From a virus: 21,131 nt of DNA. The translations under genes were made by a program, and so were the position numbers. Each line of letters opens with the position of its first letter. Position 1 is the stretch's first letter. The DNA lies in IMG/VR virus record IMGVR_UViG_3300008266_000760, positions 1,265 to 22,395 of that record, one strand, 5' to 3'. A model generated the notes under the pieces. The model saw nothing but the letters and a program-made list of their open reading frames with translations, did no database searches and had not been told where the DNA came from. Below, one piece after another: positions 3,094 through 21,131 of the stretch.

Positions 3094-3387
3094 CTAAAGT
3101 TCGACAATTTTGTAAACTTTTGTATTAAGCTGCTTTAAGTCCCCACCTTGGGTCAATAGAATACAATTTTGATAGTGTTGCCAGTTTACTCTGAAGCTGG
3201 TATCAACTACTCCACCATTTAATTTTTTAATTAAATCGTTTAGGGCATTAATTGTATAAAGAGTATTAGTCTCTTTTTTTCGGTGTACTAGAATTGTATT
3301 TAGAGGAATGTTGTTTACGTTAGCTTGTTCAACATTGTATGTTATAACGTATTCACCCGTATCATTCAAAATCGTAACTGGTTCCAT
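3094..3387 (-). CDS. Small protein of unknown function
   Basis: I do not recognise this 97-residue protein. It has no cysteine, no membrane segment and no signal peptide. Its predicted make-up is mostly beta strands with one helix (NALNDLIKKLN). Its ATG at 3387 lies inside the last codons of the polymerase gene in another frame, a 26-nt overlap that suggests translational coupling. Its placement between the polymerase and the ssDNA-binding protein suggests a replication accessory role, but nothing in the sequence shows one. It is probably real: the frame fills the space between two clear genes, and its composition is protein-like rather than that of a shadow frame. Confidence 0.65.
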   Translation of the reverse strand: MEPVTILNDTGEYVITYNVEQANVNNIPLNTILVHRKKETNTLYTINALNDLIKKLNGGVVDTSFRVNWQHYQNCILLTQGGDLKQLNTKVYKIVEL

Positions 3388-4645
3388 TTTTAACCTTTAT
3401 TTGTAATTTTTTCTTTTTGAAAATATTTTCTATATCATTTTTTAAATCTTCACTCGCATCGTAGTCAAACAAAAAACTATCATACGTATATAATACTAAC
3501 TTAGTCTTCTTGCCTTTCAATAGCTTATGTATCTCTATCAAGATACAAACATTCGTTGCTGTTTCCAAGTTTTGTAAAACGTAATTAAACAGTTTTTGTG
3601 GATTCATATTATCCAACTCACTCTTTTTAAAGACATAATTTGAACCCGGAACCACAATTTGCCCCGAATTATTAAATTCATCCCAGTTGGTATCAATAAA
3701 TTTCTTTATTTGTTGAAAAAATTCAAGGTGCTCATACTCTTTAAATACGCCTCCGTATAGTTGCTTAAACGTAAGTTCTTTTGCTTCTTTGTACGACGTA
3801 CCATATAAGTCGGCGAACGCTTGATGGACATCTCCACCGCCAAAATCAAAGGCAACCAAACGAGCAGCAAGATGAGGATGGTATGCGCTAATATCGAACT
3901 CCAAAAATTCATCATTTTGTGGTATAAAGCTCTTTCTAGCGCCTGTTTCCTTATTTAGTGCGGCAAAATTAACGCCATTAAAAGAGTTACTTGGTCTACG
4001 TGTAGTTGTAAATAAGTTATAACTTGTAAATACTTTACTGTCGCCAACTGAATAGATTGGATTGCTTGGCTTAAAGTGTTGATTAAAAACTGTTTCATTT
4101 ATGTTTATTCCATTTTTTTCGATTCCAAAGAATGCGAGTGTTGTATAATTGTTGTAAAAATCAAAATACGAGGGTAACTCCTTTGTAAAATGAGGTTTTA
4201 CTTTATTATAAATATTCTCACAATACTCATAATGCTTAACTACCGGTACAATTTTATTGACTTCTTTGTAATCCGGATACTTGTGGTAAAAATAATTGTG
4301 AGTTGGTGTTGGATCTTGTATATACGGAGGAGTGAGTATGTTTATATCGCGCAAGCTCTTAATTTGAAAGTAATATAGTGCATTCTTCTTATCGCGCACC
4401 CATAGACACTCTATTTGCGTTAATAACGCGTTTACATCCGTTTTACTTACATTTAACGTTTCGCTATGATCAATACATATCATATACCCCTTTCGTTCAT
4501 TAGACGGTCTTAGATACACTAAGGACACATCATTAAGTGCAGGATGTATATTATTATTAAACGGAACGACTTCCAGAAATGCTTCGGATATATTCCTCTG
4601 CGCTAGATAATTTAGTTGTTCTTGAGTTTCTATCAGCCAAAACAT
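3362..4645 (-). CDS. Short, divergent family A DNA polymerase
   Basis: From the ATG at 4645 this gives 427 residues (MFWLIETQEQ...). The C-terminal half carries family A polymerase motifs. There is a TTRRPSNSFNGVNF segment (about 214-227) matching the T-G-R-x-S region. Motif A is EFDISAYHPHLAARL with catalytic D251. Motif B is KELTFKQLYGG with K289, F293 and Y297 in the Pol I spacing. Motif C is LYTYDSFLFD with D389. Deviations are clear: the motif A glutamate (steric gate in Pol I) is His, and motif C reads Y-D-S instead of H-D-E. The N-terminal about 170 residues occupy the exonuclease position but show no DxE exo I motif, so proofreading is probably absent. E. coli Pol I Klenow is about 600 residues and T7 gp5 about 700, so this is small. 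The start overlaps the preceding gene by 89 nt; a start at 4687 would overlap it even more. It presumably replaces T4's family B gp43. Confidence 0.82.
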   Translation of the reverse strand: MFWLIETQEQLNYLAQRNISEAFLEVVPFNNNIHPALNDVSLVYLRPSNERKGYMICIDHSETLNVSKTDVNALLTQIECLWVRDKKNALYYFQIKSLRDINILTPPYIQDPTPTHNYFYHKYPDYKEVNKIVPVVKHYEYCENIYNKVKPHFTKELPSYFDFYNNYTTLAFFGIEKNGININETVFNQHFKPSNPIYSVGDSKVFTSYNLFTTTRRPSNSFNGVNFAALNKETGARKSFIPQNDEFLEFDISAYHPHLAARLVAFDFGGGDVHQAFADLYGTSYKEAKELTFKQLYGGVFKEYEHLEFFQQIKKFIDTNWDEFNNSGQIVVPGSNYVFKKSELDNMNPQKLFNYVLQNLETATNVCILIEIHKLLKGKKTKLVLYTYDSFLFDYDASEDLKNDIENIFKKKKLQIKVKNGTSYDFE

Positions 4646-5252
4646 TTGAAGTCGTATTATTTGAGTTATAATATTTAAGATAATCAAATTTTAGGTAATC
4701 TCCAAATCTAGGTAATTTTTGTCTAAAAACTGCTAGTTCAACTATATTTCTATTTACTTTTTCTACTTGTTCTTTATTTCCAGTTAATATCCAAGATATA
4801 GTAAAAGGTTGATACAATGAATATAATATTTGAGGATCTTTAGATTTTAATTTACTAAATTGGTCTAAATTTATTTCAACATATTGTACTTCATTTGTTT
4901 TTTTACAAAAATATCTTTGAAATTCTCCGTTTTGGTAATCTTGAGTTGTTGGTAATACTGGGGAATAATAAGGGATTAGAACTGGTGGGTTTGATGAGTT
5001 AGAATTAGTTAAATAGTCGTAAATTGGGTCTATTATAATTTGAGAAGATATTTGTGGGTTTTCCGGATAATCTTGAGCCGCAATGAATAATAATTCTTCA
5101 TTAGGTCTATCATCAGGAGTTTTTCCAGTATAGTATTTTCCAGTAGATACTTTAAAGTAGTATCCAATATAAGGAAGTTTGCTTACTGCGTAAACATATT
5201 CTCCCCCATTAGTGTATTGGTTGGTTGTTATTTGAGATTTTGGAAAATACAT
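4557..5252 (-). CDS. Uncharacterised tail/baseplate-module protein
   Basis: This 231-residue protein has no function I can assign. Its N-terminal half contains YIGYYFKVSTGKYYTGKTPDD (residues about 29-49), a pattern I associate with small uncharacterised structural proteins near baseplate genes of T4-like phages. Tyr, Asn and Pro are abundant, and no membrane segment or signal peptide is seen. It starts 11 nt after the hub-lysozyme stop codon and is the last gene of the structural module. Its final 29 codons are shared, in another frame, with the start of the polymerase gene. That tail (Ser, Thr, Asn and Arg-rich) may be a late addition made when the two modules were joined. Baseplate or virion structural protein is the most likely role, by position only. 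Confidence 0.7.
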   Translation of the reverse strand: MYFPKSQITTNQYTNGGEYVYAVSKLPYIGYYFKVSTGKYYTGKTPDDRPNEELLFIAAQDYPENPQISSQIIIDPIYDYLTNSNSSNPPVLIPYYSPVLPTTQDYQNGEFQRYFCKKTNEVQYVEINLDQFSKLKSKDPQILYSLYQPFTISWILTGNKEQVEKVNRNIVELAVFRQKLPRFGDYLKFDYLKYYNSNNTTSNVLADRNSRTTKLSSAEEYIRSISGSRSV

Positions 5253-5263
5253 AATTAATTATT

Positions 5264-8248
5264 TTAACCTAATTTTTCAGGAAGACTATAAACAAATGCT
5301 CTTGCTTTTCTAAGTCCTTCTTGGAATATAGCTCCGCTTGTTGAAGTTCCCCATCCAGCATTAGCTCTCATAAAATTAAATACTGCTTTATCTAAATCAT
5401 CAGTTGGTGCTTTTGGAAAGAAATTAGATTTATTTCTTTTAAAGAAAAGAGCTGCTATGTGAGATGCTACTGGATAAACTGATCCTTCTTGTTTATTAAC
5501 TAGATCTGGGTTTGCGATGATGTCAAGTTTACCTGCTTTGGAACCATTATCCTTATAAAGTTTATTATATGCTTCATAGTTACCTTTAAAGGTTAATTGG
5601 TTAAAACCTCTACCTCTATATTTGTAACCTTCATTTTTAGCATTACCATATCTACCTCCGTAAATAGTATCAAAGAATTTTTGAGGATCTTTCTTAATTA
5701 CATCAATTTCAGCATCTGTTTTATTTTTAAACTTGCTTGGGAAAACTTGTCTAATTCTAGATGCTTTTGTATTAGCATATGAAATTTCATTTCTTGGAAC
5801 AAAGGCTGATTCTTTAGAAACAATACCTAAAATAGCTCTAGCTTCTATATCTGTAAAGCCGTATTGACGAAGAGTTTTATAAAGATAATTGGCACTATCT
5901 TTTTGGCCTTGAGATAAACTATCCCATGTTTTAGATCCTTTAACAACTGGGGCTGTACCTCTAACAACATCTCTACTATCTCCAGAAGCAGGTGCAGAAG
6001 CTTGACCAACAGTACCTTGTCCAGTTTTAGAACCAAATGCACTTTTGGGAATAGCAATAGATTCTAAAACCGTAATCCATTCATTATTTTCAATTTTATT
6101 AGTTACACCTTTAACTAAAAATTCTAAAGATGTAGGATAATTTGAAGGTAAATAAGTAGAATCAATTGTATATTTTTGATAAACTTTCATTCCTGAAAGT
6201 CCATCCATAGTTAAAGATAAATCAAATGGAAGGAAACCTCCATTTGGTGAAGCAGCATTTGGATTAGTATCTTTTTTTTCTTCAGTTTGTTTAGCTTGAT
6301 CATATTCAAATAATGAAGATGCTGCATTACTGAATGCTGTAATGGCTTCAGGGTTCCATTTTGGAGTAGCTTCATTTAATGAACCTAATTCAGAAACAAA
6401 TGTATTAAAAGCTGTTAATTGTTCTTGATAACTTTCTTCTAAAGAAGCACTTCCTTTAGTTTGATTATTTTGAGTTGCTTCTAAATCTAGTTTTTTCTTA
6501 AATCTATCAGTTAAACCAGCATTCATTGCTGATAAAGCTGTTGAATCTTCTCCAGGAACATATCCATTTGCTGTTGCTCCAATAGTAATCATTGATGCTA
6601 AATTAGGAGATACAGTTGTTGTAAAGCTTATATCTCTAATAAAACCTGCAGATGAAGTTCCATTAGTATTATAATAATAACCATAAACATCAAAAAATGC
6701 TAATTCAGTAGATTTATTTTGTTGTTTTAAAATATCATCTCTATCAGGACAAATTACTTCATCAGTAAATACAATAGTATTTCGTTCACTATCAACTGTA
6801 GGTTCTAATTTACTAAAATTACCAGTTGCACTATTCCATCCTTGACATAAACTATTTAATAAATCATATAAAGGTACTTTACCATCTTCATTTTTTAAAG
6901 AATCCATTTGGGTAAGAATATAAACCATATTAAAATATGAATTCATTATCTTACCATATTTGTTTTCACCTATATTAGTAAAAAAGGTTTCCCCTGTACT
7001 TGCAAAAGTAACTGTACCTTCGGAAACATCTATTGTGGTATTAAATATACACACCCCAGGATCAGTACTAATTTGTCTTGATAACATATAGATTAAATTA
7101 GTTTCAGGGTCTGTGTCTATTGATAATAGTTTTACTTCAGGATTATCAACAAATGGTATAAGACGTTTTTCTATAAATTTTAAAAAACGACCTAATCTAA
7201 TATAGTATTGAGTACCACCTTCGTCTTCATATTTTTGTTTTAAAAATCCTATTGTACCATCAGCACTTGTTAAATAAGATAATCCACTAGAATCTACTCC
7301 TAATGGAGCCATTCTTTGTTGCATCTCATAGAAAAATTTTCCTATTTCATGAGTATTAGCAAAATCTTTAATAACATCTTCAGGGGTAGGTTCTGGAGGG
7401 GTTTCTGTTGTTTCTTCAGGTGTTTGGGTTTCACCTTCAGCACTTCCACTTGATACAGTATCTAAAGCTGCTCCTGGGAGAAGGGTATTAGTTTTAAGGG
7501 ATTCAATAACATCACCCATACTTCTTAAGGTAAGAGTAATATCATAAGTACCATCTTTTAAAAATGACCATTGAAAATTAACTACTTTACCTACAATAGC
7601 ATCATAATTTCCAAAAGTAGCTAATCTTTTACTTTCTATAGTATCAAAAGCATTTTTATAATTTAAAGCTCCTGTTAAAAAATTATCTGCCAAACTAGTA
7701 TAATCTGCTACATATCTACCGTCATTAGTAAAATAAGAAGTATTACCCCATTCTAACAACATTGTAAAACCTAAACGCATATAAAGAATATCAATAATAT
7801 CAAATTGATTTCTATTATTTGCTTTAATTCTAACAGTAGCTGTTTTAAGAGAACCTCTAGTTTCAGTTTGTATTTCGGCTGAGGTAACACCTGGCATGGC
7901 ATTTAAACCAAAATTAGTTCCTCCTATACCATAAGCATAATTGTTAGGATCTCCTACACCCGGCCATACACCTCCTCTTTGATAAGTTTCTTGAGCTCCT
8001 CTTGTTGGGGATTCATTTGTAGTACCATTAAATAATACAAATCTAGAAGCTAATTCTGCTCCTGTATATGGAACGGCTCTAACAGGTTTATTTACATTAA
8101 CTGATGATACCAATTTAACCCATCCAGTTCTAGCATTTAAATATGTTAATTGTTCATTAGTTCTATTAGAAGAACCATAAACTAATTGTCTTCGTTTTAT
8201 TTGACCAACTATCGTTTGTGGAAAACCTTCGCCTACTATATTTGCCAT
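5264..8248 (-). CDS. Baseplate hub protein fused to a C-terminal GH19 lysozyme/chitinase-like domain
   Basis: This 994-residue protein has at least three regions. The N-terminal part (about 1-260) contains GVTSAEIQTETRGSLKTATV and ILYMRLGFTMLLEWGNTSYF, which look like the hub or ring domain of T4-like baseplates (gp27-type role). A Thr/Pro/Glu-rich linker lies near 265-290, followed by a long structural middle part. From about residue 774 the sequence matches glycoside hydrolase family 19: a catalytic Glu in IVSKESAF (E813), a second acid in RNEISY (E821), and the hallmark GYKYRGRGFNQLTFKGNY (874-891). GH19 domains cleave peptidoglycan or chitin chains; here the target would be the peptidoglycan pierced during injection, the job done in T4 by the gp5 lysozyme. 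It lies between the LysM-like protein and p231, inside the baseplate module, so this is a virion enzyme rather than a free endolysin. No holin is nearby. Confidence 0.85.
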   Translation of the reverse strand: MANIVGEGFPQTIVGQIKRRQLVYGSSNRTNEQLTYLNARTGWVKLVSSVNVNKPVRAVPYTGAELASRFVLFNGTTNESPTRGAQETYQRGGVWPGVGDPNNYAYGIGGTNFGLNAMPGVTSAEIQTETRGSLKTATVRIKANNRNQFDIIDILYMRLGFTMLLEWGNTSYFTNDGRYVADYTSLADNFLTGALNYKNAFDTIESKRLATFGNYDAIVGKVVNFQWSFLKDGTYDITLTLRSMGDVIESLKTNTLLPGAALDTVSSGSAEGETQTPEETTETPPEPTPEDVIKDFANTHEIGKFFYEMQQRMAPLGVDSSGLSYLTSADGTIGFLKQKYEDEGGTQYYIRLGRFLKFIEKRLIPFVDNPEVKLLSIDTDPETNLIYMLSRQISTDPGVCIFNTTIDVSEGTVTFASTGETFFTNIGENKYGKIMNSYFNMVYILTQMDSLKNEDGKVPLYDLLNSLCQGWNSATGNFSKLEPTVDSERNTIVFTDEVICPDRDDILKQQNKSTELAFFDVYGYYYNTNGTSSAGFIRDISFTTTVSPNLASMITIGATANGYVPGEDSTALSAMNAGLTDRFKKKLDLEATQNNQTKGSASLEESYQEQLTAFNTFVSELGSLNEATPKWNPEAITAFSNAASSLFEYDQAKQTEEKKDTNPNAASPNGGFLPFDLSLTMDGLSGMKVYQKYTIDSTYLPSNYPTSLEFLVKGVTNKIENNEWITVLESIAIPKSAFGSKTGQGTVGQASAPASGDSRDVVRGTAPVVKGSKTWDSLSQGQKDSANYLYKTLRQYGFTDIEARAILGIVSKESAFVPRNEISYANTKASRIRQVFPSKFKNKTDAEIDVIKKDPQKFFDTIYGGRYGNAKNEGYKYRGRGFNQLTFKGNYEAYNKLYKDNGSKAGKLDIIANPDLVNKQEGSVYPVASHIAALFFKRNKSNFFPKAPTDDLDKAVFNFMRANAGWGTSTSGAIFQEGLRKARAFVYSLPEKLG

Positions 8249-11075: not shown

Positions 11076-13997
11076 TTATTGAGTTTTATAAGCACCTACA
11101 GACATTGCTGTACCTACTTTTGTACCATTTAGATATATGTTTCCTCCTTGTCTAACAGCTACAATTAATTCATCTAATTTAGCATAAAATTTATCAAGAG
11201 GAACTACTGCTTCAGCACCAGCTTCACCAACTAATGCTCTTGTAGGACCAGTAACAATACCTCCAGTAGCCATTGCTTTTTCACCTAAAGCCATATTACC
11301 TAACCCAGTAAATGCTTTATCAGGAACTAAACCAACTAAATTATCAGTAACCCATTTAATAGGAGACATTCCAAATGATCCTAAAATACCATCTGCTATA
11401 CTAATAGCTGTACCAAAACCTGGGATAAAAGCAGTTGCCGCATTAGCAATAGGATAAGCAGCTGCTTGAACTAAACTTTTTCCTAATTTTCCAGCATCTA
11501 CTTTTTCACCTGCTGCTTTTCTTTCTCTAGCATCTGATAAAAGGGAAGATATACTTCCTACTGATTCAATAACTGCAAAAATAGGTCCTAAAGCTTTTCC
11601 AAATCCTTTAGCAATTGGTCCTCCTAAGATTTTTTTAACACCTCCAAAAGTACCTGAGATTTTTTTACCGATACCTCCAAAGAAACTTCCTACTTTACCA
11701 AAGAAACTTCCACCTTTAGCAGCTTTTGTTGCTTTTGTAAATCTTCCTGTTTTTGGATCTCTTGCTCTTGGTGTTGCTGATTTTGTCTTTGAAGATGAAG
11801 GAGTTGATGATGATGCCATATCAGAAGCCATATCCGCAGCATCTACACTAGTATAAGCCATATCTTCTCCAGACATATCTTCACCACCGTCACCACCAAA
11901 CATAGATGCTAATCCTAGTCCAGTCATAGCTAGATTAGCTATACGACCAAATCTACCTCCTCTACCAGCTCTACCAGCTCTACCTTTTCTACCAGCTCTA
12001 CCTTTTCTACCTCTTCTACCTCTTGATGATCCACCACTAGTACCACCATCATCATAACCTCCACCTCCACCTCCAACTATATTAACATTTAGTGGATCTC
12101 CTGCTCTACCTGAAGGTTTACCTTTAAAGGCATTAATAAGTCCTCTACCTACTACGAATAAACCGAAGGCAGTAGCTGCTAATCCAGCTCCACCAGCTAA
12201 ACCTGATAAAAGTTTAGAGCTAGAAATTTGTTCCATAAATCCTGAAAATAAATTCATAGCTTTAGTAACTGGTCCTACTAGAAACTTCATAAAGGATTGT
12301 TTTAATCTTTCAGCGGTTTCAGCCATTTTTTCACTATTAGCCATTTCTTGATCAGCTAAAGCTACAGATTTTCCTTTAAGGACTTGTTTTTCTAATTCTG
12401 CTGCTTTTTCAACTTGTCCAGCGGCTTTTAACTCTTCAATTCTTTTCTTTAAAGCAGAAGCTTCTTGTTTATCTAAAGAATCAAGTTGTTTTTGTTTAAC
12501 TAAAGAATCAGCTAATTCATCTGCACTCATACCCAAAGCTTTAGCATAAGCTTCTTGTTGAATAACATTCATTTTTTGGAATTTAGCTAATCCATTAGGA
12601 CCTAAATTTTTCATTAATTCAGCGGCAGCACCTGCTGAGTCTCCTTGAAGAGCTAGATATCTAGCTTTTTCTAAATTTAAATCTTGTCCTGTAAGTAGTT
12701 CTGCTTCTAATTCAGCTGAAATTGAATCTTCAAAATTTAATAAGGCACTTGATATATTTTTAGTTTGTTCTAAGGTCATACCAAGTTTTTGAGCTTGAGT
12801 TACTGCTTTTCCTAATAATTCAGGATTATTTTTATATTGAGCAGCTAATTGACCTGATGTTTTTAATACTTCTGAAAGGACTTTTTTATTATTTAAAACT
12901 CCTTTATTTTGTCTTCCAATAGAATTATATATTTTTTCCTGAGATTTGCCAGTTAATAATGAAAATTTCATTATACCTGCTCTTTCTTCAGCTTCTAAAC
13001 CAGCATTTTTAGTTAAAGCAACTTGATCTTTTAGTTGCTTTTCACTTAACATTACATTAGTTCCTAAGAAATTATTAATTTCATTATTAGCAGCAAGAAC
13101 ATCTTTATGAGTTCGTCCCATATGGATAGCCATATGTTCTAACTCTTTATTCATTTCATTAGCTGCTTCGAAACTTAACCCAAGATTCTTTTGAATAGCA
13201 ACACTTTCTTCATTAAACTCATTAGCGTATTCTATCATGCTATGGAATACCTTAGCAGTCATTGTTATCTGAGTTAATGGATCTTTAAATGCTTCTAAAA
13301 GTGAAGAACCCATACTTCTAAGACCAGCACCTAATACTCTAAAACCACTTCCTGTTTTAGCTGCTTCTCTTAAATCTTCATTTATTTTTTCAAAATGTTC
13401 TGATTCAATTCCTATGTGTTCAAGGCTTTTTGCTATACCTTTAAAAGCTGCTCCTGTAAGACCTAAGGTTTTCTGAATTTTTTCTTCAGTTTTTAATTCA
13501 GCTTCGACTTGTTTATTGATATCTTTTAATAAACCAGTTTGTTCATTTAAAGCATCTGTAACTTCTCTATATGCGTCAGAATTTTTATCTAAAAGTTTTT
13601 GATTTTCTTTTAAACGTTTAACTTCTTCAGCTGTTTGTTTTTTAATATTAACTAATTGTTTAACCGTTAAAATTTCTTCATTTTTTCTATGATCACTAAT
13701 TTTACGAGTTAAACTTTCTAATTTATCAAAAGCTCTAGTAGTTTCTTTTACTGGGTTTGGAGCTCCTTTTAAATCTTGAACTATATTTTTTAATGTAGCT
13801 GAAATTGTTCCAAAACTGTCTCTTAAATCCTCAACATCTTTTTCCATTTCGGAGATAAGTTTTCTAGCACCATTAATACCACCACCAAAAGCTTTGATAG
13901 CAGCATTCATGTCTTTAAAAGACTCACCTCCTAAATTTTGAATTTCTTTTTTTAGTTGTTGAATCTGTTTTTTTAAGTCTTGAATATTATCAGCCAT
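11076..13997 (-). CDS. Tail tape measure protein
   Basis: This 973-residue protein sets tail length and fills the tube. Residues 1-180 are strongly coiled-coil (QDLKKQIQQLKKEIQNLGG and later K/E-rich heptads). The long helical middle, to about 590, includes an Ala/Glu/Lys-rich stretch near 500-570. A hydrophobic Gly/Ala segment at 596-624 (LLSGLAGGAGLAATAFGLFV...) could insert in the host membrane. A Gly-rich linker leads to eight Gly-Arg-X triplets (660-683), then Gly/Ala/Lys-rich hydrophobic segments (750-900). The near-terminal GPTRALVGEAGAEAVVPLDK (about 913-932) is a hallmark of many tape measure proteins. It follows the gp26-like/frameshift pair, as in most tailed phages where chaperone genes precede the tape measure. 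T4 gp29 is only 590 residues, so a longer tail is expected. Confidence 0.9.
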   Translation of the reverse strand: MADNIQDLKKQIQQLKKEIQNLGGESFKDMNAAIKAFGGGINGARKLISEMEKDVEDLRDSFGTISATLKNIVQDLKGAPNPVKETTRAFDKLESLTRKISDHRKNEEILTVKQLVNIKKQTAEEVKRLKENQKLLDKNSDAYREVTDALNEQTGLLKDINKQVEAELKTEEKIQKTLGLTGAAFKGIAKSLEHIGIESEHFEKINEDLREAAKTGSGFRVLGAGLRSMGSSLLEAFKDPLTQITMTAKVFHSMIEYANEFNEESVAIQKNLGLSFEAANEMNKELEHMAIHMGRTHKDVLAANNEINNFLGTNVMLSEKQLKDQVALTKNAGLEAEERAGIMKFSLLTGKSQEKIYNSIGRQNKGVLNNKKVLSEVLKTSGQLAAQYKNNPELLGKAVTQAQKLGMTLEQTKNISSALLNFEDSISAELEAELLTGQDLNLEKARYLALQGDSAGAAAELMKNLGPNGLAKFQKMNVIQQEAYAKALGMSADELADSLVKQKQLDSLDKQEASALKKRIEELKAAGQVEKAAELEKQVLKGKSVALADQEMANSEKMAETAERLKQSFMKFLVGPVTKAMNLFSGFMEQISSSKLLSGLAGGAGLAATAFGLFVVGRGLINAFKGKPSGRAGDPLNVNIVGGGGGGYDDGGTSGGSSRGRRGRKGRAGRKGRAGRAGRGGRFGRIANLAMTGLGLASMFGGDGGEDMSGEDMAYTSVDAADMASDMASSSTPSSSKTKSATPRARDPKTGRFTKATKAAKGGSFFGKVGSFFGGIGKKISGTFGGVKKILGGPIAKGFGKALGPIFAVIESVGSISSLLSDARERKAAGEKVDAGKLGKSLVQAAAYPIANAATAFIPGFGTAISIADGILGSFGMSPIKWVTDNLVGLVPDKAFTGLGNMALGEKAMATGGIVTGPTRALVGEAGAEAVVPLDKFYAKLDELIVAVRQGGNIYLNGTKVGTAMSVGAYKTQ
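11949..12020 (-). repeat. Eight 9-bp repeats (GGTAGAnnn) encoding Gly-Arg-X triplets
   Basis: Inside the tape measure gene, eight consecutive 9-bp units begin GGTAGA on the coding strand. Their third codons are AGA, AAA, GCT, AAA, GCT, GCT, GGA and TTT. They encode (G-R-X)8, a strongly basic collagen-like run at residues 660-683, followed by one more Gly-Arg. Such in-frame repeats can change copy number by slippage. Confidence 0.85.
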
Positions 13998-14026: not shown

Positions 14027-14052
14027 GAAGGCATCACTTTTTGGATGCCTTC
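14027..14052 (-). terminator. Hairpin over the stop codon of the frameshift ORF (possible terminator)
   Basis: A perfect 9-bp stem (GAAGGCATC paired with GATGCCTTC) with an 8-nt loop overlaps the TGA stop at 14034-14036. Downstream on the minus strand the sequence is TAATATTTATAA, AT-rich but not a clean T run, so termination may be partial. It could also affect ribosome release or mRNA stability. Confidence 0.45.
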
Positions 14053-14309
14053 GTAACATATGTTGGAACATTTATTTTATTTTTAGCTACCGCACCAGCG
14101 GATTTCATTGCGTTAATAGATTGTTCTACTACATCATTTTGTTTTTTATTATTTGTTTTATCGTAGTGTTCAAGGATTTTATTATAGGTAAATTTTCTTA
14201 ACCATATAGGCATATCATATATTGTATTATAATCATACCCTCCTTGACCATAAAACACTATTTCATGGATTTGAGTAAATAAATTACCCCTATACTCAGG
14301 CGTCAGGCC
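14034..14309 (-). CDS. Frameshift extension of the gp26-like protein (tail assembly chaperone second part)
   Basis: This open frame of 91 codons has no ATG start where one is needed. The only start-like codon near its head is GTG 14258, with no ribosome binding site, and the first in-frame ATG lies at 14213 inside the well-formed stretch TIYDMPIWLRKFTYNKI. Upstream of the GTG the frame remains open and protein-like (GLTPEYRGNLFTQIHEI, 14309-14259) up to a run of seven T just before the stop codon of the gp26-like gene. A +1 (or -2) ribosomal slip on that run would fuse it to the preceding 250 residues. The position, directly before the tape measure, is that of lambda gpT, the frameshifted half of the G/GT tail chaperone. 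If no frameshift occurs, it would be a 74-residue protein starting with GTG. The C-terminal tail is basic (VTKASKK). Confidence 0.7.
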   Translation of the reverse strand, partial: GLTPEYRGNLFTQIHEIVFYGQGGYDYNTIYDMPIWLRKFTYNKILEHYDKTNNKKQNDVVEQSINAMKSAGAVAKNKINVPTYVTKASKK

Positions 14310-15060
14310 AAAAAAAGTTAATCCCGATTGGGATAGTGATGTCCTCCTCTACACCATTATCAAATACATAATGATATTTTAAATCTATACCAGGACTAAC
14401 TGAACTAAAATATTCTCTAAATGCTCTAGAATCTTTAGCTAGCAATCCATAGTCAATGAATTCTCTAATGGTCTTTTTATCATAATCTCCATTTACTGAA
14501 AGAATCATATGACGGAATCTAGTTGTAACTTCAAAATTACCTTTAGGATCAAGTTTTTTCAATCCTTGAATTTCTCTATCAATAGATTGCTCATCACCAT
14601 GAGTTAATAATTTAAAAGTAATTACATTTCCTGTGTGAGGTAATTTAAAAGTAAATTCATTTTTACCTTTTTCACTAATTAATTCCTCATTTAGAAATTT
14701 TTCTTTAACTGTTGTTAAATCTATATTAACTGTTTCTTCAACATCACCGTATTCTGGGTAGTAATTAAATGAATAATCTTTACCATAACCAAGAACACGA
14801 GCTGCTAACATCACAGCATCTTTATCACCAACTAACAAATCATTGTAATCAAATTTAGTTACAAGCATAGATTGTAACAATTTGTCAATAACAATTCCTT
14901 GTTTAATGTAGTTTTGGTTAGTTAAAATATCTTCTTCTCTAGCAGTCATGTATTTCATTTCTACTTTTCCTTCTGCTAAAGGATGACCTTCAGGGTACAA
15001 TATACCTTTTGAAGGCAATTCTACAACTTCTGTTGGGAACTTAAATTTATTTTCTTCCAT
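14296..15060 (-). CDS. gp26-family baseplate / tail assembly protein (T4_baseplate-like)
   Basis: This 254-residue protein matches the T4 gp26-type family by its N-terminal pattern VELPSKGILYPEGHPLAEGK (about 13-32) and MKYMTAREEDILTNQNYI (about 35-52), followed by IVIDKLLQSML. T4 gp26 (208 residues) is needed for assembly of the baseplate hub; in other T4-like phages this gene sits between the tube and the tape measure. It ends NFFWPDA at a TGA, four codons after two Phe codons written TTT TTT T. Slipping there into the next open frame would give a 341-residue product (342 for a -2 slip). Its own motif-bearing upstream region (15061-15110) follows a strong terminator, so it probably starts a transcript. 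I infer a tail assembly chaperone role; the classical annotation would be baseplate hub subunit. Confidence 0.82.
   Translation of the reverse strand: MEENKFKFPTEVVELPSKGILYPEGHPLAEGKVEMKYMTAREEDILTNQNYIKQGIVIDKLLQSMLVTKFDYNDLLVGDKDAVMLAARVLGYGKDYSFNYYPEYGDVEETVNIDLTTVKEKFLNEELISEKGKNEFTFKLPHTGNVITFKLLTHGDEQSIDREIQGLKKLDPKGNFEVTTRFRHMILSVNGDYDKKTIREFIDYGLLAKDSRAFREYFSSVSPGIDLKYHYVFDNGVEEDITIPIGINFFWPDA
14310..14316 (-). other. Candidate programmed frameshift site (run of seven T)
   Basis: The coding strand reads AAC TTT TTT TGG CCT GAC GCC TGA in the gp26-like frame. Phe-tRNA on the second TTT can re-pair with TTT after sliding +1, giving AAC TTT TTT (T) GGC CTG ACG and entering the open frame that ends at 14034. 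A -2 slide gives the same frame with one extra Phe. A -1 slide meets a stop at once (TTG GCC TGA), so it is ruled out. Confidence 0.65.
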
Positions 15061-15156: not shown

Positions 15157-15645
15157 TTAGAAGTTCAATACACAGTAATCAGGTTGAACTGTCATTGTAA
15201 GGTTTACTGCAGTACCATCATCATCCCAGTTGTAATCACCAAAATTGGCTTCAGTAATTAACGCACCTTTGATAATCCATTCTGATACGATATCACCTAC
15301 AGGTCCTAATACATCGAAAGTTAAATCTTTCTTATAGAAATCTGAATAACCATCACGACCAGTTACTGATTCGTGGTGTAAACGAACCCATTCCATCACT
15401 GCTTGAGCACCTGAAGGAGTGATAGGATCGAACAATGTAAACTGAATTGTACCCCATGTTGTTTTTCCTTTCACAAAACGTTGTACGTTAATGTGATTCA
15501 AAGGAACAGTACCTTGAGTTAAGTTTACAGCACCAACACCTTTAATTTCATATGCTGGGATCCCGTCAATGTACATGATAAAGCGATTCGTTTGCTTTGG
15601 TTCAAAGGCGGTGAAAAATATTTCGTTTGGATCTAATACTGCCAT
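15157..15645 (-). CDS. 19: Tail tube protein (gp19-like)
   Basis: This 162-residue protein is close in length to T4 gp19 (163 residues). Family features are the N-terminal PKQTNRFIMYIDGIPAYEIKG (about 16-36), the long strand-turn region with VPLNHINVQRFVKGKTTWGT (about 48-67), LFDPITPSGAQAVMEWVRLH (about 71-90), and the closing LTMTVQPDYCVLNF. It forms the inner tube through which DNA passes, stacked in hexameric rings on the baseplate. It follows the sheath gene, has its own late-type motif 45 nt downstream of the sheath stop codon, and ends in a strong terminator. This fits a protein needed in many copies. Its codon choice looks richer in C and G at third positions than the neighbouring baseplate genes, which may reflect high expression. 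Confidence 0.95.
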   Translation of the reverse strand: MAVLDPNEIFFTAFEPKQTNRFIMYIDGIPAYEIKGVGAVNLTQGTVPLNHINVQRFVKGKTTWGTIQFTLFDPITPSGAQAVMEWVRLHHESVTGRDGYSDFYKKDLTFDVLGPVGDIVSEWIIKGALITEANFGDYNWDDDGTAVNLTMTVQPDYCVLNF

Positions 15646-15690: not shown

Positions 15691-17421
15691 TTATGCTGGG
15701 AAAGTAGCACCTGTTGGTAAGATGTTGAAATCCAAGTAAATGAATTCTGCAGTCTTAGTAGGTTGGATATAAATTTGACCTACCATCTGATTTCTATCAA
15801 TTACATCAGCTGTGTTATTACTATCATCCATGATTACTTTGAAAGCATACAAACCTTGACGTTGTTGTACTGATTCTAAGTATGGGTTAACTTGGCTTAA
15901 GAATTGGTTTCTTGTAGCGATAGTATTTTGTTCGAATACTAAGTTTTGAGCTACTTGAGAAATGTAAGACTTAAGTTGAATTAACAAACGACGAACATTT
16001 ACACGATCAAGAGCAGATGCTCTAGTTTGTAATGTTTTCTGACCGTATACTACAACTCCTGTTCCAGGGAATGTTGCAATTGGGTTAACTTTGTTTGTAT
16101 ATAAAGTATCACGGTTAGCTTGAGATAATTTCTTTTCAGCTCTAATTACTGTGCTTAAACCACCTCTGTTAATACCTGCTGGGGCAAACCATGGTTCAGA
16201 AACACTATCATTGTAAGCATAAACACCACCTACCATTGTTGAAGCTGGTACCCATACTCTTTGAGCTGAATCTGGATCAATTGTTTGAACCCAAGGCCAG
16301 TAAGTAGCAGCATATGAAGTATTTTTAGCATTTGCTTGAGTAGTTACATCACTAATGCTTGAGCTATAAGGTACTAAATCAACTACGTAAATAGCATCAC
16401 CTCTAAATTGTGTGTTATTAATTGCTGTAGTTACTTGTGATGCTCCTAAATTAGCAGTTGCTGCTGAAAGGCCAGGAGTTAATAATATGTTATATCTGTA
16501 GTCATCTGCATTACCTAACAAATTAATCATTTGAGTGTAAGCACTTGCTGTAATACCTTGAATGTTTGTAGAAGCTACATCAATATTGTTATAGAAATCA
16601 GCAACTCCTACGAATAAATTACCTGTTGCACCACCAAATGAACCACTAGCATTTGAAGGAATTGAACCAGTAAATTGTGCTTGTGCTACACCAGCATTGT
16701 TAAAGTAGAATGGAGTTGGAGTTAATACATCACTTACATAAACGTATCTTGAGTTATTTGGATAATCACCAATTACTTCAATTTGATTATCTTGAGCATT
16801 GTATTGTCTATATTGGTTACCAATAATTCTAGATACATAGTTAGGAGCTGTTGGGTCCATTGATAGATTAGTCCAAGTTTCTAATACAGTAGGATTAGTA
16901 GTTGTATCATTACCTTGTCTAATTAATAGACTAAATGTTCCTGATGAAGTATCGTAGTTAGAAATTTGCCATCTAACATTATCAGCAGAACCACTTGTTA
17001 ATGCACCAAAAGCATCTTGAGAAGATGTGCTATTTTGAAGTGCACCTTCAGAAATTGTTTTTAATCTGAAAGCTTCATTACCATCAGCATTTAATATTGG
17101 AGTACCTAATGAACCTGAAGTTGATGCTTCTGAAAATGAACCAGTTACTACTCTTGATACTAAAAGAGTTTGACCTCCATTTGCAAAATAGTTGTAAGCA
17201 GCAATTGAAGTAAAGTAAGTGTAAACTTGGCTAGCACTTAAAAAAGTAGTACCGAATTTATTTTGGTAATCACTATATGAAGTAACAATTGTTGGTACTT
17301 CAACTGGACCTTTTACTGTAGGACCGATAATAGCTGCTCCAACGGTTACTGGTTGAGAAGATACAAATGAGTTATCGTTTTCTAACGCTAATACACCCGG
17401 AGATATTAATGTTTCTGCCAT
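15691..17421 (-). CDS. 18: Tail sheath protein (gp18-like)
   Basis: This 576-residue protein is the contractile sheath subunit. It opens with the family's typical MAETLISPGVLALENDNSF and VTVGAAIIGPTVKGPVEVPT. Next come SYSDYQNKFG, and AAYNYFANGGQTLLVSRVV (about 74-92). A variable surface-exposed middle (about 100-280, rich in Ser, Thr and Asn) follows. The conserved C-terminal core includes EPWFAPAGINRGGL, VNPIATFPGTGVVVYGQKTL and NVRRLLIQLKSYISQVAQNL, and closes with EFIYLDFNILPTGATFPA. T4 gp18 is 659 residues, so this version is slightly shorter. Subunits slide on contraction to drive the tube into the cell. It lies between the small coiled-coil gene and the tube gene, and has its own upstream late-type motif and an AAA before the ATG. 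Its Ser/Thr-rich insertion could be a target of the neighbouring glycosyltransferases, but nothing in the sequence proves this. Confidence 0.96.
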   Translation of the reverse strand: MAETLISPGVLALENDNSFVSSQPVTVGAAIIGPTVKGPVEVPTIVTSYSDYQNKFGTTFLSASQVYTYFTSIAAYNYFANGGQTLLVSRVVTGSFSEASTSGSLGTPILNADGNEAFRLKTISEGALQNSTSSQDAFGALTSGSADNVRWQISNYDTSSGTFSLLIRQGNDTTTNPTVLETWTNLSMDPTAPNYVSRIIGNQYRQYNAQDNQIEVIGDYPNNSRYVYVSDVLTPTPFYFNNAGVAQAQFTGSIPSNASGSFGGATGNLFVGVADFYNNIDVASTNIQGITASAYTQMINLLGNADDYRYNILLTPGLSAATANLGASQVTTAINNTQFRGDAIYVVDLVPYSSSISDVTTQANAKNTSYAATYWPWVQTIDPDSAQRVWVPASTMVGGVYAYNDSVSEPWFAPAGINRGGLSTVIRAEKKLSQANRDTLYTNKVNPIATFPGTGVVVYGQKTLQTRASALDRVNVRRLLIQLKSYISQVAQNLVFEQNTIATRNQFLSQVNPYLESVQQRQGLYAFKVIMDDSNNTADVIDRNQMVGQIYIQPTKTAEFIYLDFNILPTGATFPA

Positions 17422-17722: not shown

Positions 17723-18922
17723 TTAATAAATATTAAGCAATTTATTAAGAGATTCAATTACTCGAGAAGGTTCAATAACTTTTGTACATTCAAATTGACG
17801 TGGAGTATCCTTATGATCTGGGCACCATTCCCAATCACCTGGATTTAACCAATGACGATTAAAGCATCCTCTACAAACTCTAGGATTATCAGGGAATATA
17901 CGTTCACAATCTTGCATTTCAGTATATGGATAACTAAATCCTGAAATTAAAACTGTTGGGGTATTTAATGACCAGGATAACCAACTTAATCCGCTTCCTA
18001 CACCAATAAAAGCATCGGCATCACGAATATCAACCATTCTATCTTCTAAAGGAAAATCTCCGGTTTTATTAATTACTCCTGTTAAAGTTCCACCAAGTTT
18101 TGAATCATGCCACTCATCACCTAAAGGTTCTTGAGTTAACATAACGACTTTATAATCTTTGCTATTTAAATAATCAATAACCGTTTGCCAACCTTTTGGA
18201 TACATCCAATACTTAGCGTGAGCTGAAGCATGAGGGGCAATAACAACATATTTACCTTCAATATCTGTTTTTCTATCAGGAGTATTAATTATAGGTTTAA
18301 CTTCTCTATATTTCATCCCTAATATTTCAGTAGCAGTTTGTTGTAAAGGATATTTTTTAAAATCAATAGGAGTTTTATCAAATACTACTTTTTTATCGTC
18401 ATAAAACCAACCAATAGCAAACATACCATATAAATTATTTACTTCAGTTCCGGGTTTTACGAATTGAATTTCGGGGTAATTTCCTTCAAACCAATCATTG
18501 TGAAAAGTTGAGCAAACTAATTCACAATTGTTTTCTTTTCTAAATTCCTCAATTACTGGGAACCAAGCTAATGTATCTCCTAATGCTGTAGAATCTATAT
18601 GAACGTATACTCTTTTACCTGTTGGATCAAAATTATGTTCCAAAACTAAAGAATTAGTTTCTTTATCATAAATTTCAATACGCCATCTAACTAAATATTT
18701 TATATTAGGTCGAGTCCACATATTATTACTAATTGTGTTCTCAAACAATACTCTATTTGTTTTACTATTAACAAATTTTATAACATATTCTTTTTGGAGG
18801 GGACCTAAAATTTCTACAAATGCTCCATTAACAAAATTAATGTTAAATGTATTTTCAGGTTTTTTATGAGGTATTCCTAAAATTTTAGTATTGTTATACT
18901 CATTGATTAAAACTTCTTTCAT
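17723..18922 (-). CDS. Protein O-heptosyltransferase-like GT9 enzyme (TibC/Aah, BAHT family)
   Basis: This 399-residue protein matches bacterial autotransporter heptosyltransferases. An N-terminal beta domain (about 25-97: FNINFVNGAFVEILGP, YVIKFVNSKTNRVLFE, NMWTRPNIKYLVRWRIEIYD) precedes a GT-B fold. The first Rossmann part has VYVHIDSTALGDTLAWFPVI (106-125), where D110 and G115-D116 match the acceptor/catalytic loop of the family. The second has YVVIAPHASAHAKYW and the donor-site segment DADAFIGVGSGLSWLSWSLN (301-320). The C-terminus holds the family's metal-binding cysteine set: C350-x2-C353-x13-C367-x11-C379, ending in RQFECTKVI; in TibC such cysteines bind iron. Known members transfer heptose from ADP-heptose to Ser of autotransporters. 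Here the target may be a virion or host surface protein. It is the third gene of an ATGA-coupled set and precedes the coiled-coil and sheath genes. Confidence 0.85.
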   Translation of the reverse strand: MKEVLINEYNNTKILGIPHKKPENTFNINFVNGAFVEILGPLQKEYVIKFVNSKTNRVLFENTISNNMWTRPNIKYLVRWRIEIYDKETNSLVLEHNFDPTGKRVYVHIDSTALGDTLAWFPVIEEFRKENNCELVCSTFHNDWFEGNYPEIQFVKPGTEVNNLYGMFAIGWFYDDKKVVFDKTPIDFKKYPLQQTATEILGMKYREVKPIINTPDRKTDIEGKYVVIAPHASAHAKYWMYPKGWQTVIDYLNSKDYKVVMLTQEPLGDEWHDSKLGGTLTGVINKTGDFPLEDRMVDIRDADAFIGVGSGLSWLSWSLNTPTVLISGFSYPYTEMQDCERIFPDNPRVCRGCFNRHWLNPGDWEWCPDHKDTPRQFECTKVIEPSRVIESLNKLLNIY

Positions 18923-19863
18923 ATATGATTATTAAATAAATTTATTAATTCTTTTGAACGATTAAACCATGATAATTCTTGTGCTGTATTTAAAGAATTT
19001 TTTCTATATTCACCATATTTTTGGGTGATATCCTTTAAACCTCTTAACATTTCTTTTAAATCACGAGGAGCTCTCCACAATCCATGAAATGTAGTTGATT
19101 CTTCAATCCATCCAAGTATAGGTAAACCACAAGCTGCTGCTTCTAATAAAGTTAAATTAGGATGACCAGCTTCTAACTCACTTGGATGTAAAAATATAGT
19201 ATGAGAAGTATAAATTTGTCTTAAATCATCATTTGAAGGTTCCCATATTATTGTTAATTTAGGATAACCTCTAACCCAAGGATTATCTTTAACCCAATTT
19301 TCATTATTTTTTGGACCAACAATAGTAATAGGTAAATCAGCAGCCATTGCTAATTGTACTCCTAATCCAAATCCTTTTCTATCATATGCGCCATAACCTC
19401 CTAAACCATTATTTGCTAACATTAATAAGTTATGAGATATTGGAGGTGTTTCATTTGGGTAAAAAATATTAGTATTTACACCATGTGAAAAATAATGTAC
19501 ATTAGGTAAATCAAAATATTCAACTAAATAACGAGCTGGGACTAATGAAAAAATAGATTTAGCCATTGCTTCTCTATTTTCTTTATATACACCTGAATCT
19601 TTTCCATAATGATATGCATGGTGATCATGGTGTTGGAATATATAAGGAATACCTCTATCTGCTAATTCTAAAGCTAAATTAGCAACATGAACCATAACAA
19701 TATCATATTCACCTGGAATGATTTCTGAGGCGAATTTAATATCTACTTCGTGACCTAATTCTTTTAAATTACAAGTGAATTCCCATACGATTTTTTCTAT
19801 AGCACCCCACGCTGGAGGTGGGATTGGGATTCCACAACCTGGATTGACTTGACAAATTTTCAT
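18919..19863 (-). CDS. Glycosyltransferase, GT4-like (GT-B fold)
   Basis: This 314-residue protein begins MKICQVNPGCGIPIPPPAWG with the glycine-rich loop and AIEKIVWEF helix typical of GT4 enzymes, where the nucleotide-sugar transferases start with an 'xxGGxE' type motif (here WGAIEK). SHGVNTNIFYP (126-136) is the interdomain hinge found in GT4. IVGPKN (181-186) starts the donor domain strands, and HPSELEAGHPNLTLLEAAACGLPIL (226-250) is the donor-binding Glu-rich region, two residues longer than the usual E-x7-E. An HxDHHAYHYG stretch (79-87) is an unusual His-rich feature. No membrane segment is seen, so it is cytoplasmic. It overlaps both neighbours by ATGA, indicating one coupled unit with the heptosyltransferase. 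The sugar and acceptor cannot be told from sequence. Confidence 0.87.
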   Translation of the reverse strand: MKICQVNPGCGIPIPPPAWGAIEKIVWEFTCNLKELGHEVDIKFASEIIPGEYDIVMVHVANLALELADRGIPYIFQHHDHHAYHYGKDSGVYKENREAMAKSIFSLVPARYLVEYFDLPNVHYFSHGVNTNIFYPNETPPISHNLLMLANNGLGGYGAYDRKGFGLGVQLAMAADLPITIVGPKNNENWVKDNPWVRGYPKLTIIWEPSNDDLRQIYTSHTIFLHPSELEAGHPNLTLLEAAACGLPILGWIEESTTFHGLWRAPRDLKEMLRGLKDITQKYGEYRKNSLNTAQELSWFNRSKELINLFNNHI

Positions 19864-21131
19864 AATAACTCCATAGTACCGTTTGTCGGTAAAATATTTT
19901 TTAAATAATCATTATCTATTTTAATTGTTTTTAAAGCAATAAATTCATTAGTTTTTAAATCTCTTGTTTCTAATTCAAATATAAAATCATTATTATCTTC
20001 TAAAGAATAATAAATTATTTTCCAAAATGTAAGACTTCTTTCAACATCAACGTCGTGTTCCCAAACAACTTCACCTGAGTGAAATTTGGTTCTTACTATG
20101 AATTTTCTAGCGTCTCTATTATTACTAGTTCTAAATAAAATTACATACTCATTAGAACTATCTTTTACAGGAATTAAAGTAAAATATTCTGCTTGTGAAA
20201 AACTAATATGATCTAAAGCTTTTTCACATACTTGAGTAAATTTTTCATTACTTTCCCAATATGCTTTTGAATCATTTATTAAATGATGATACCAAATAGT
20301 TTCTAACCCATTTGAAGGAGCATTAGTTTTGATTTGAAGATCATCCCAATCTTTTCGTGAAAAAATTTGAGGAAGATATTGTAAAAATGTTTTAGGTCTT
20401 ATACCCATAAAAGCTGTTCTCATTTGTGGAACATCTCCCTTACCATCTAATAATTTTTCAGAATATAAAGAATGTTTATTTAAAATTTTAGAAACATAAT
20501 TAATTTGTTCGATATCTTTTAAATGATAATCATAATTAATTAAATATGCTTTTTTAATTCCTAAATTATCTGCTAAAGCCATAGCATTGTGTATATTATT
20601 ATGGCAAGCTGGTCCATGATAAAAATTATTACCAGCATCTGAAGTAATTCTAGCCCATATTTTCCATTCAGGTTCTTCTATAAACCATACCCAAGGAAAT
20701 GTATGTTCAGTAGTTATATTATTTTTATCATATATAACATAATCTGAAAGTTCTTGGATTTCTTTGGAAACAGGGTGATGAGAGGTTGTAATAATAACTC
20801 TATTATCTTTTCGTAAAGCTTTTAAACATTCTATTGTAATTTCTTCTATAAGAGAATTATTAGGATAAGTTCCTACAATATAAGCTTCTTGTTCAGGAAA
20901 AATTTCATCATTATCTTTAACACTTTCTTTAATCAATTCACAATTTTTTTCAAAACTATCAAATTCAAGATAATTAACGGTATCAAATTTGTCAAAATAA
21001 TTCTGATAGACTTCAAGATTATAAATTAATGTTGGGATTTGATATGAAATTGCCTCACGAATAACTAAAGGCATTGTTTCTTTATCATTAACTGAACCTC
21101 TAGATGTAAACAAAAATAAATCCATCGCCTG
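19860..21131 (-). CDS. Multidomain glycosyltransferase, 5' end missing
   Basis: The frame is open to the window edge, and the two codons before the first ATG (21125) continue it as Gln-Ala, so this Met is probably internal. The visible 421 residues begin with the end of a GT4-like donor domain: DLFLFTSRG then ETMPLVIREAISYQIPTLIYN (about 2-37). A second domain (about 80-290) has YIVGTYPNNSLIEEITIECL, RVIITTSHHPV, a Trp/His-rich stretch (about 143-178) and AMALADNLGIKKAYLINYDY. I do not recognise its family with certainty; it resembles GT-A-type or capsule-related domains. The last about 100 residues are beta-rich (KFIVRTKFHSGEVVWEHDVD, FWKIIYYSLEDNNDFIFELE) and resemble the N-terminal beta domain of the neighbouring heptosyltransferase. 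The stop overlaps the next ATG (ATGA). It probably acts with the two following transferases to build a glycan. Confidence 0.75.
   Translation of the reverse strand, partial: QAMDLFLFTSRGSVNDKETMPLVIREAISYQIPTLIYNLEVYQNYFDKFDTVNYLEFDSFEKNCELIKESVKDNDEIFPEQEAYIVGTYPNNSLIEEITIECLKALRKDNRVIITTSHHPVSKEIQELSDYVIYDKNNITTEHTFPWVWFIEEPEWKIWARITSDAGNNFYHGPACHNNIHNAMALADNLGIKKAYLINYDYHLKDIEQINYVSKILNKHSLYSEKLLDGKGDVPQMRTAFMGIRPKTFLQYLPQIFSRKDWDDLQIKTNAPSNGLETIWYHHLINDSKAYWESNEKFTQVCEKALDHISFSQAEYFTLIPVKDSSNEYVILFRTSNNRDARKFIVRTKFHSGEVVWEHDVDVERSLTFWKIIYYSLEDNNDFIFELETRDLKTNEFIALKTIKIDNDYLKNILPTNGTMELL

Follow-up and report, generated by a model that had tools for sequence, protein, structure and literature searches.

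A very probable +1 frameshift at UUU_Y in a gp26-family tail gene, with a reading of T4 gp26 and gp51

The tail assembly chaperone pairs of phage lambda (G/GT) and HK97 (gp13/gp14) are made with a -1 frameshift. A -2 shift is known for the corresponding pair of phage Mu (PMC5009743), and the haloarchaeal myovirus HSTV-2 has been described as very likely using +1 (PMC5009743; PMC8211752). In the YopN-TyeA genes of Y. pestis and in PA-X of influenza A virus (UCC_UUU_CGU), a +1 shift takes place as tRNA-Phe moves from UUU to UUC or UUU (PMC5009743, PMC3498833). More generally, a tendency of UUU_Ynn to promote +1 shifts is documented in bacteria, UUU_U being less effective in E. coli than CUU_U (PMC5009743).

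In marine T4-like cyanophages, a small ORF after gp26 is annotated as gp51 or as 'baseplate hub assembly catalyst', a name also given in Pseudomonas phage Cygsa01. Sullivan et al. (2010) observed that the cyanophage gp51 is only about 20% as long as usual and corresponds to the C-terminal end of T4 gp51, whose first ~200 residues it lacks (PMC3037559). Frameshifting is not mentioned in the text of that paper, and the short gp51 is left unexplained there (PMC3037559).

In this paper we study a stretch of viral DNA of 21,131 nucleotides (positions 1,265 to 22,395 of the IMG/VR record IMGVR_UViG_3300008266_000760), which we call the window and which comes from a phage distantly related to T4, and extend the analysis to related loci. 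We consider it very probable that a region of this DNA encodes a G/GT-type tail assembly chaperone pair by way of a +1 shift at UUU_Y, for which there is no protein evidence. The inferred shift differs in direction from the -1 of lambda and HK97. Frame relation (+1/-2) and gene position are as in Mu, and both are likewise as in HSTV-2, while the slip site of the window is UUU_Y with tRNA-Phe. YopN-TyeA and PA-X have the same UUU_Y +1 type of site, but they are unrelated genes, the window case being a phage tail chaperone.

The gp26-family gene and the frame behind it

The tail genes of the window all lie on the minus strand, in the order sheath, tube, G, T and tape measure. The tail sheath protein (15691..17421) matches PF04984 (E 4e-13) and PF17482 (E 1e-11), and the tail tube protein directly upstream of G (15157..15645) matches the tail tube family phrog_4542 (E 3e-23). 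The putative G half (14296..15060), a gp26-family ORF of 254 aa that would be the short product, matches PF12322 (T4_baseplate) over residues 30-233 with E 3e-6 and 27.5 bits (gathering cut-off 24.5), and phrog_150 (baseplate hub) with E 1e-11. The putative T half (14034..14309; 91 codons and a stop), identified by its open frame and its pN/pS, is in the +1 frame and would be read only after a shift. Directly downstream of it lies a probable tape measure protein of 973 aa (11076..13997), assigned by position and size; in Flavobacterium phage immuto and in Bacillus phage SP-15 the homologous position bears the annotation 'tail tape measure protein', and both annotations show the order tube, G, T, tape measure as well. 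G and T thus sit between the tail tube and tape measure genes, as a G/GT pair should.

As an identity for the T half we rejected PF25421 (DUF7891), to which the match is weak (17.4 bits, under the gathering score of 27) and which was not found in the named relatives. Elsewhere in the window, the neighbours of the tail sheath gene (17723-21125) are two genes for glycosyltransferases (PF01075, PF13692) and a third large one that matches nothing in Pfam, and a 441-aa ORF without a Pfam match lies between the replication and tail genes (3362-4687). A protein of 994 aa (5264-8248), whose C-terminus (785-909) weakly matches Phage_lysozyme2, is probably a hub or tail-lysozyme fusion.

The 0-frame end of the G ORF reads ATT AAC TTT TTT TGG CCT GAC GCC TGA, with the stop at 14298-14296. 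The slip region, AAC TTT TTT T GGC (14307..14319; TTT TTT TGG in the 0-frame), contains a run of seven T (14316..14310), and the ORF terminates four codons past TTT TTT. From about 52 nt upstream of this stop, the +1/-2 frame is open to the TAA at 14034; counted from GGC (14309-14307) it encodes 91 aa, beginning GLTPEYRGNLFTQIHEIVFYGQGGYDYN, and the GT fusion would comprise 341 aa. On re-reading, the original prediction of a gp26-like gene that ends just after a T-run, and of a 91-codon +1/-2 frame open to 14034, was exact. It had also held that a -1 slip is blocked at once, and the -1 frame does meet a stop almost immediately.

Start-like codons in the T frame of the window are confined to an ATG at T codon 33 and a GTG at T codon 18 (14256..14258; hereafter GTG 14258), the latter being the only one before the conserved motif. 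This GTG had been said to lack a ribosome binding site, which is true and at the same time uninformative: no Shine-Dalgarno sequence was found before any of eleven inspected window starts, GTG 14258 included, and its absence carries no weight because the other inspected genes also start without one. The leaders of the window genes are rich in A and T, a feature shared with Bacteroidota and their phages that agrees with the closest named relative being a Flavobacterium phage.

Conservation of the junction and selection on the T frame

An initial scan of IMG/VR yielded 80 relatives, and two more scans with T and G alignments brought the collection to 184 distinct loci. All belong to a single family, which limits their independence, and the counts that follow are to be read accordingly. 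In the first 80 relatives T follows in the +1 frame at every intact junction, with TTTTTTTGGCCT almost unchanged down to 57% protein identity. Over the whole collection the +1 relation holds in 183 of 184 loci, the exception (L019) being a broken contig, and an in-frame TTT_Y (UUU_Y) occurs in all 183 intact loci. The conservation of T-run and frame relation that the original prediction had expected of an alignment of related phages is therefore found. The slip context is TTT TTT TGG in 165 loci, TTT CTT TGG in nine, TTT TTT TTC in six, TTT TTT TAY in two and TTT CTA TGG in one. Synonymous positions of the slip site are invariant; the Phe codons of the slip pair are TTT in 114 of 114 cases, compared with 494 of 595 elsewhere in the same genes.

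An ORF resembling T, again in the +1 frame and together with UUU_Y at the end of G, is also present in Flavobacterium phage immuto, Microcystis phage Mel-JY01, Streptococcus phage GXN1, Bacillus phage SP-15, Rhodothermus phage RM378 and the metagenomic sequence LR756508. A UUU_Y inside a stretch open in both frames, the hallmark of the +1 UUU_Y class, is thus seen in 183/183 loci and in these six further phages. In the annotation of distant relatives the T half is missed or shortened; in immuto it appears as a 36-aa hypothetical protein. Viral scans with the G of LR756508 as query gave no match, and those with the G of SP-15 found only SP-15 itself.

The broken frame could in principle be a sequencing error or the mark of a decayed gene. 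Nothing but the break itself speaks for this, apart from the broken contig L019, which does resemble an assembly error, while the same break recurs in 183 distinct contigs and in independently sequenced isolates, with purifying selection on the T side. For the family, error or decay is already refuted, and we attach next to no credence to it.

This selection reaches the slip site. In T codons 5-17, which lie between the 0-frame stop and GTG 14258, pN/pS (from 21 independent pairs) is 0.205 in the T frame, as against 0.86 and 8.2 when the same codons are read in the two other frames; in T codons 18-45 it is 0.152. Conservation of the T protein begins with its very first residue, right at the slip site, and follows the pattern G-L-T/S-x-E-Y-R-x-x-L-F-x-x-I-H-E-I. 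Codon-level purifying selection between GTG 14258 and the slip site, which the original prediction had called for, is hence present. An overlapping T ORF, a slip site that is conserved close to where G ends and selection on T up to that site, all of which a G/GT arrangement demands, are found together here.

These data bear on the possibility that T is a separate protein, initiated independently or by reinitiation at GTG 14258 or at a non-standard codon, with no fusion being made. An unmarked start is not excludable in a phage that seems not to use Shine-Dalgarno sequences, and other T4-like phages may use a separate start, as in Cygsa01 with its TAATG overlap and in many cyanophages with an ATG near the T start. 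Strong T-frame selection upstream of GTG 14258 stands against such a start, as do the invariant synonymous positions of the slip site and the 67 of 183 loci in which the T frame contains no ATG, GTG or TTG between the preceding stop and codon 27. GTG 14258 is not conserved among relatives, and the conserved ATG at T codon 33 falls within the core motif. Homologues with an independent start, which would have counted against the prediction, were not encountered in the sense that the relatives have no conserved one. As judged by this comparison, GTG 14258 is not needed for expression of T, and the upstream selection and the 67 startless loci rule it out as the general mechanism; independent initiation in whatever form appears to us very improbable.

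Direction of the inferred shift

The frames of G and T are joined equally well by +1 and by -2, and the original prediction had left the choice between them undecided. We asked whether tRNA-Phe can re-pair in the P-site, requiring that the first two codon positions match exactly, in 189 junctions. Re-pairing after +1 is feasible in 189/189, and both +1 and -2 are feasible in 176/189. In the remaining 13 (TTT CTT TGG, TTT CTA TGG, TTT CTA TTC and TTC TTT CGT), where no T run exceeds three, -2 is excluded, and no junction needs it. A +1 shift on UUU_Y is favoured because only +1 re-pairing works in these thirteen junctions, and as far as the sequences allow a judgement it is the most likely direction, ahead of both -2 and transcript slippage.

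A -2 ribosomal shift, as in Mu, would join the same frames and leave one extra Phe in the product (N-F-F-F-G-L-T). It has the precedent of Mu in its favour, and the T7 run of the window permits -2 re-pairing of tRNA-Phe. For the family, the Mu-like class would require that such re-pairing be possible throughout, which fails in 13 of 189 junctions, at interrupted or different runs where +1 on UUU_C works. Of the two directions first proposed, +1 is accordingly supported and -2 disfavoured, and we hold the latter to be very unlikely.

RNA polymerase slippage at the T run would produce a mixed mRNA population in which part of the molecules fuse both frames, and most members of the family do have runs of 7 or 8 T. 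But ten metagenomic relatives, immuto and LR756508 have no run of more than three T (TTTCTTTGG, TTTCTATGG, TTTCTATTC), and the site of GXN1 is TTCTTTCGT; the relatives with interrupted runs retain both the frame relation and the in-frame UUU_Y. Slippage of the polymerase strikes us as very unlikely.

No stimulatory element was recognised. Downstream RNA structure at the junction did not rise above control positions, and upstream SD-like 4-mers were present in only 26 of 184 loci, with nothing above controls. The slip context of GXN1 (locus L085, near 4711), UUC_UUU_CGU, has UUU_CGU in common with the +1 site of influenza A PA-X.

With a +1 shift on UUU_Y, expression of the pair would proceed as follows. 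Most ribosomes would read the gp26-family ORF to its stop and release G (254 aa). In a fraction of ribosomes, the size of which and hence the ratio of the products is a matter of inference, as is the occurrence of the shift itself, tRNA-Phe would re-pair at +1 on UUU_U or UUU_C, GGC would be the next codon, and translation would continue in the T frame. The resulting GT of 341 aa would have the junction N-F-F-G-L-T-P-E-Y-R, and a +1 shift would be expected to yield a junction tryptic peptide ending GVSFFGLTPEYR in immuto and GINFFGLTPEYR in the window phage. If the parallel with lambda holds, the tape measure protein, whose gene comes next, would be coated by G, tail tube subunits would be brought in by the T part of GT, and neither G nor GT would be present in the finished tail; this role in assembly, binding to tape measure and tube included, is likewise inferred.

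Predicted fold of G, cyanophage loci and the T4 proteins

An AlphaFold2 model of G (pLDDT 89) has structure matches in BFVD among the gp26-family proteins of SP-15 and of many large myoviruses. Three of the BFVD matches (A0A8S5RZL9, A0A514CT42, B2ZYI8) are gp26-fold proteins of 380-440 aa from some large phages, which may be in-frame G-T fusions or carriers of further domains. With the whole G chain, Foldseek found nothing significant among solved structures, and sequence searches of G and of T4 gp51 against the PDB gave no relevant match. When 988 chains were realigned to the G model, two stood out, namely B. subtilis YqbN (3klu, Z 6.4), which we take to be a PBSX-type tail chaperone, and the HK97 chaperone (2ob9, Z 5.3), both alignments covering G residues 1-96. 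For the N-terminal domain modelled alone, 2ob9 ranked first in Foldseek (TM 0.52, E 1.0), and the Z scores were 6.2 for 3klu, 5.9 for 3fgx and 5.3 for 2ob9. Such scores are middling (all Z below 8, Foldseek E 1.0) and by themselves no proof of homology, but the identity of the matches fits the hypothesis that G is a tail assembly chaperone, its N-terminal domain being predicted to resemble the HK97 protein. From the lambda and HK97 proteins the window G differs in its length of ~250 aa, its extra C-terminal part and its PF12322 match, and the libraries used revealed no similarity in sequence to lambda-type G.

The gp26 and small 'gp51' of cyanophages appear to be a gp26-T frameshift pair with the same architecture as in the window, differing from it in using -1 at U_UUU_UUC instead of +1 at UUU_Y. 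An in-frame U_UUU_UUC, which is a textbook -1 site, lies at the end of gp26 in 81 of 81 cases (80 IMG/VR loci and Synechococcus phage S-SCSM1), and of 79 distinct junctions 78 have the small ORF in the -1 frame, those of Vibrio phage Bakedbeans and of Cygsa01 included. Without exception the codon preceding the run has T as its last base and the second Phe is encoded by TTC, while both positions vary elsewhere in the same genes. The single exception to the -1 frame, which counts against the scheme, is S-SCSM1 (locus L090, 4657-4720), where U_UUU_UUC is kept and T is moved to the +1 frame by a difference of 11 nt behind the gp26 stop; in this phage T may be reached by +1 at that run or from an ATG of its own. 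In Bakedbeans (locus L091, 4670-4700) the -1 frame is accompanied by the U_UUU_UUC heptamer, and in Cygsa01 (locus L092, 4300-4320) by a TAATG stop-start overlap, which suggests reinitiation.

Both gp26 and gp51 of T4, known as hub assembly chaperones, match PF12322 (E 9e-64 and 4e-52), and their genes are separate and divergently transcribed. By hhalign, whose E-values are here single-pair values, the cyanophage T half aligns with the C-terminus of gp51 (E 1e-12). The cyanophage G-T fusion aligns with T4 gp51 over its full length (E 5e-15; 12-299/6-254) and with T4 gp26 over the G part only (E 1e-15; 13-240/5-205); with the fusion of the window group it is collinear, T included (E 7e-9). The link from the window to T4 is less direct. 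The T half of the window matches the cyanophage T with E 2.8e-4 and the C-terminus of gp51 only weakly (E 0.006, in the expected register), and direct HHalign of the window group with T4 gp51 and gp26 is likewise weak (E 0.06 and 0.38). We rejected these direct comparisons with the T4 proteins as a sole proof, since they are too weak alone, and the link rests on Pfam (PF12322) for G and on the cyanophage bridge for T. Together with gene order and the predicted N-terminal fold, the homology of T through the cyanophages to the gp51 C-terminus supports the assignment, already made in the original prediction, of the gp26-family protein as G half and of the next ORF as T half.

In T4 itself, gp51 consists of a PF12322 domain and a T domain, and gp26 of the PF12322 domain alone, which is what equivalents of GT and G should look like. 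The T4 pair resembles that of the window in PF12322, and the C-terminal extension of gp51 is homologous to the cyanophage T half; it differs in being encoded by two genes and not by one frameshifted gene. T4 had been placed outside the G/GT scheme, but probably carries both products as the paralogous genes 26 and 51. We regard it as likely that T4 is no exception to the G/GT rule, gene 26 being G and gene 51 GT, split by gene duplication, and that the same products arise in the T4 superfamily by at least three routes: +1 at UUU_Y in the window group, the Flavobacterium and Microcystis phages, SP-15 and RM378; -1 at U_UUU_UUC in T4-like cyanophages; and two paralogues in T4 and its close relatives. 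On the same reading, the direction of the shift changed while the proteins stayed homologous. The location of G and GT on separate genes would account for T4 being listed as an exception to G-T frameshifting.

The open-access literature yielded no previous account in which frameshifting was ascribed to the gp26/gp51 family or gp51 was seen as GT; subscription journals were not covered, and priority is not certain. Under the reading proposed here, gp26 and gp51, whose roles have hitherto been unclear, would gain a concrete and testable one as the tape-measure chaperones G and GT, and the shortness of the cyanophage 'gp51' (PMC3037559) would be explained. Many genomes of T4-like phages would then be mis-annotated at the G-T junction, and the family would offer a case in which two products are preserved by selection while the decoding trick that yields them changes.
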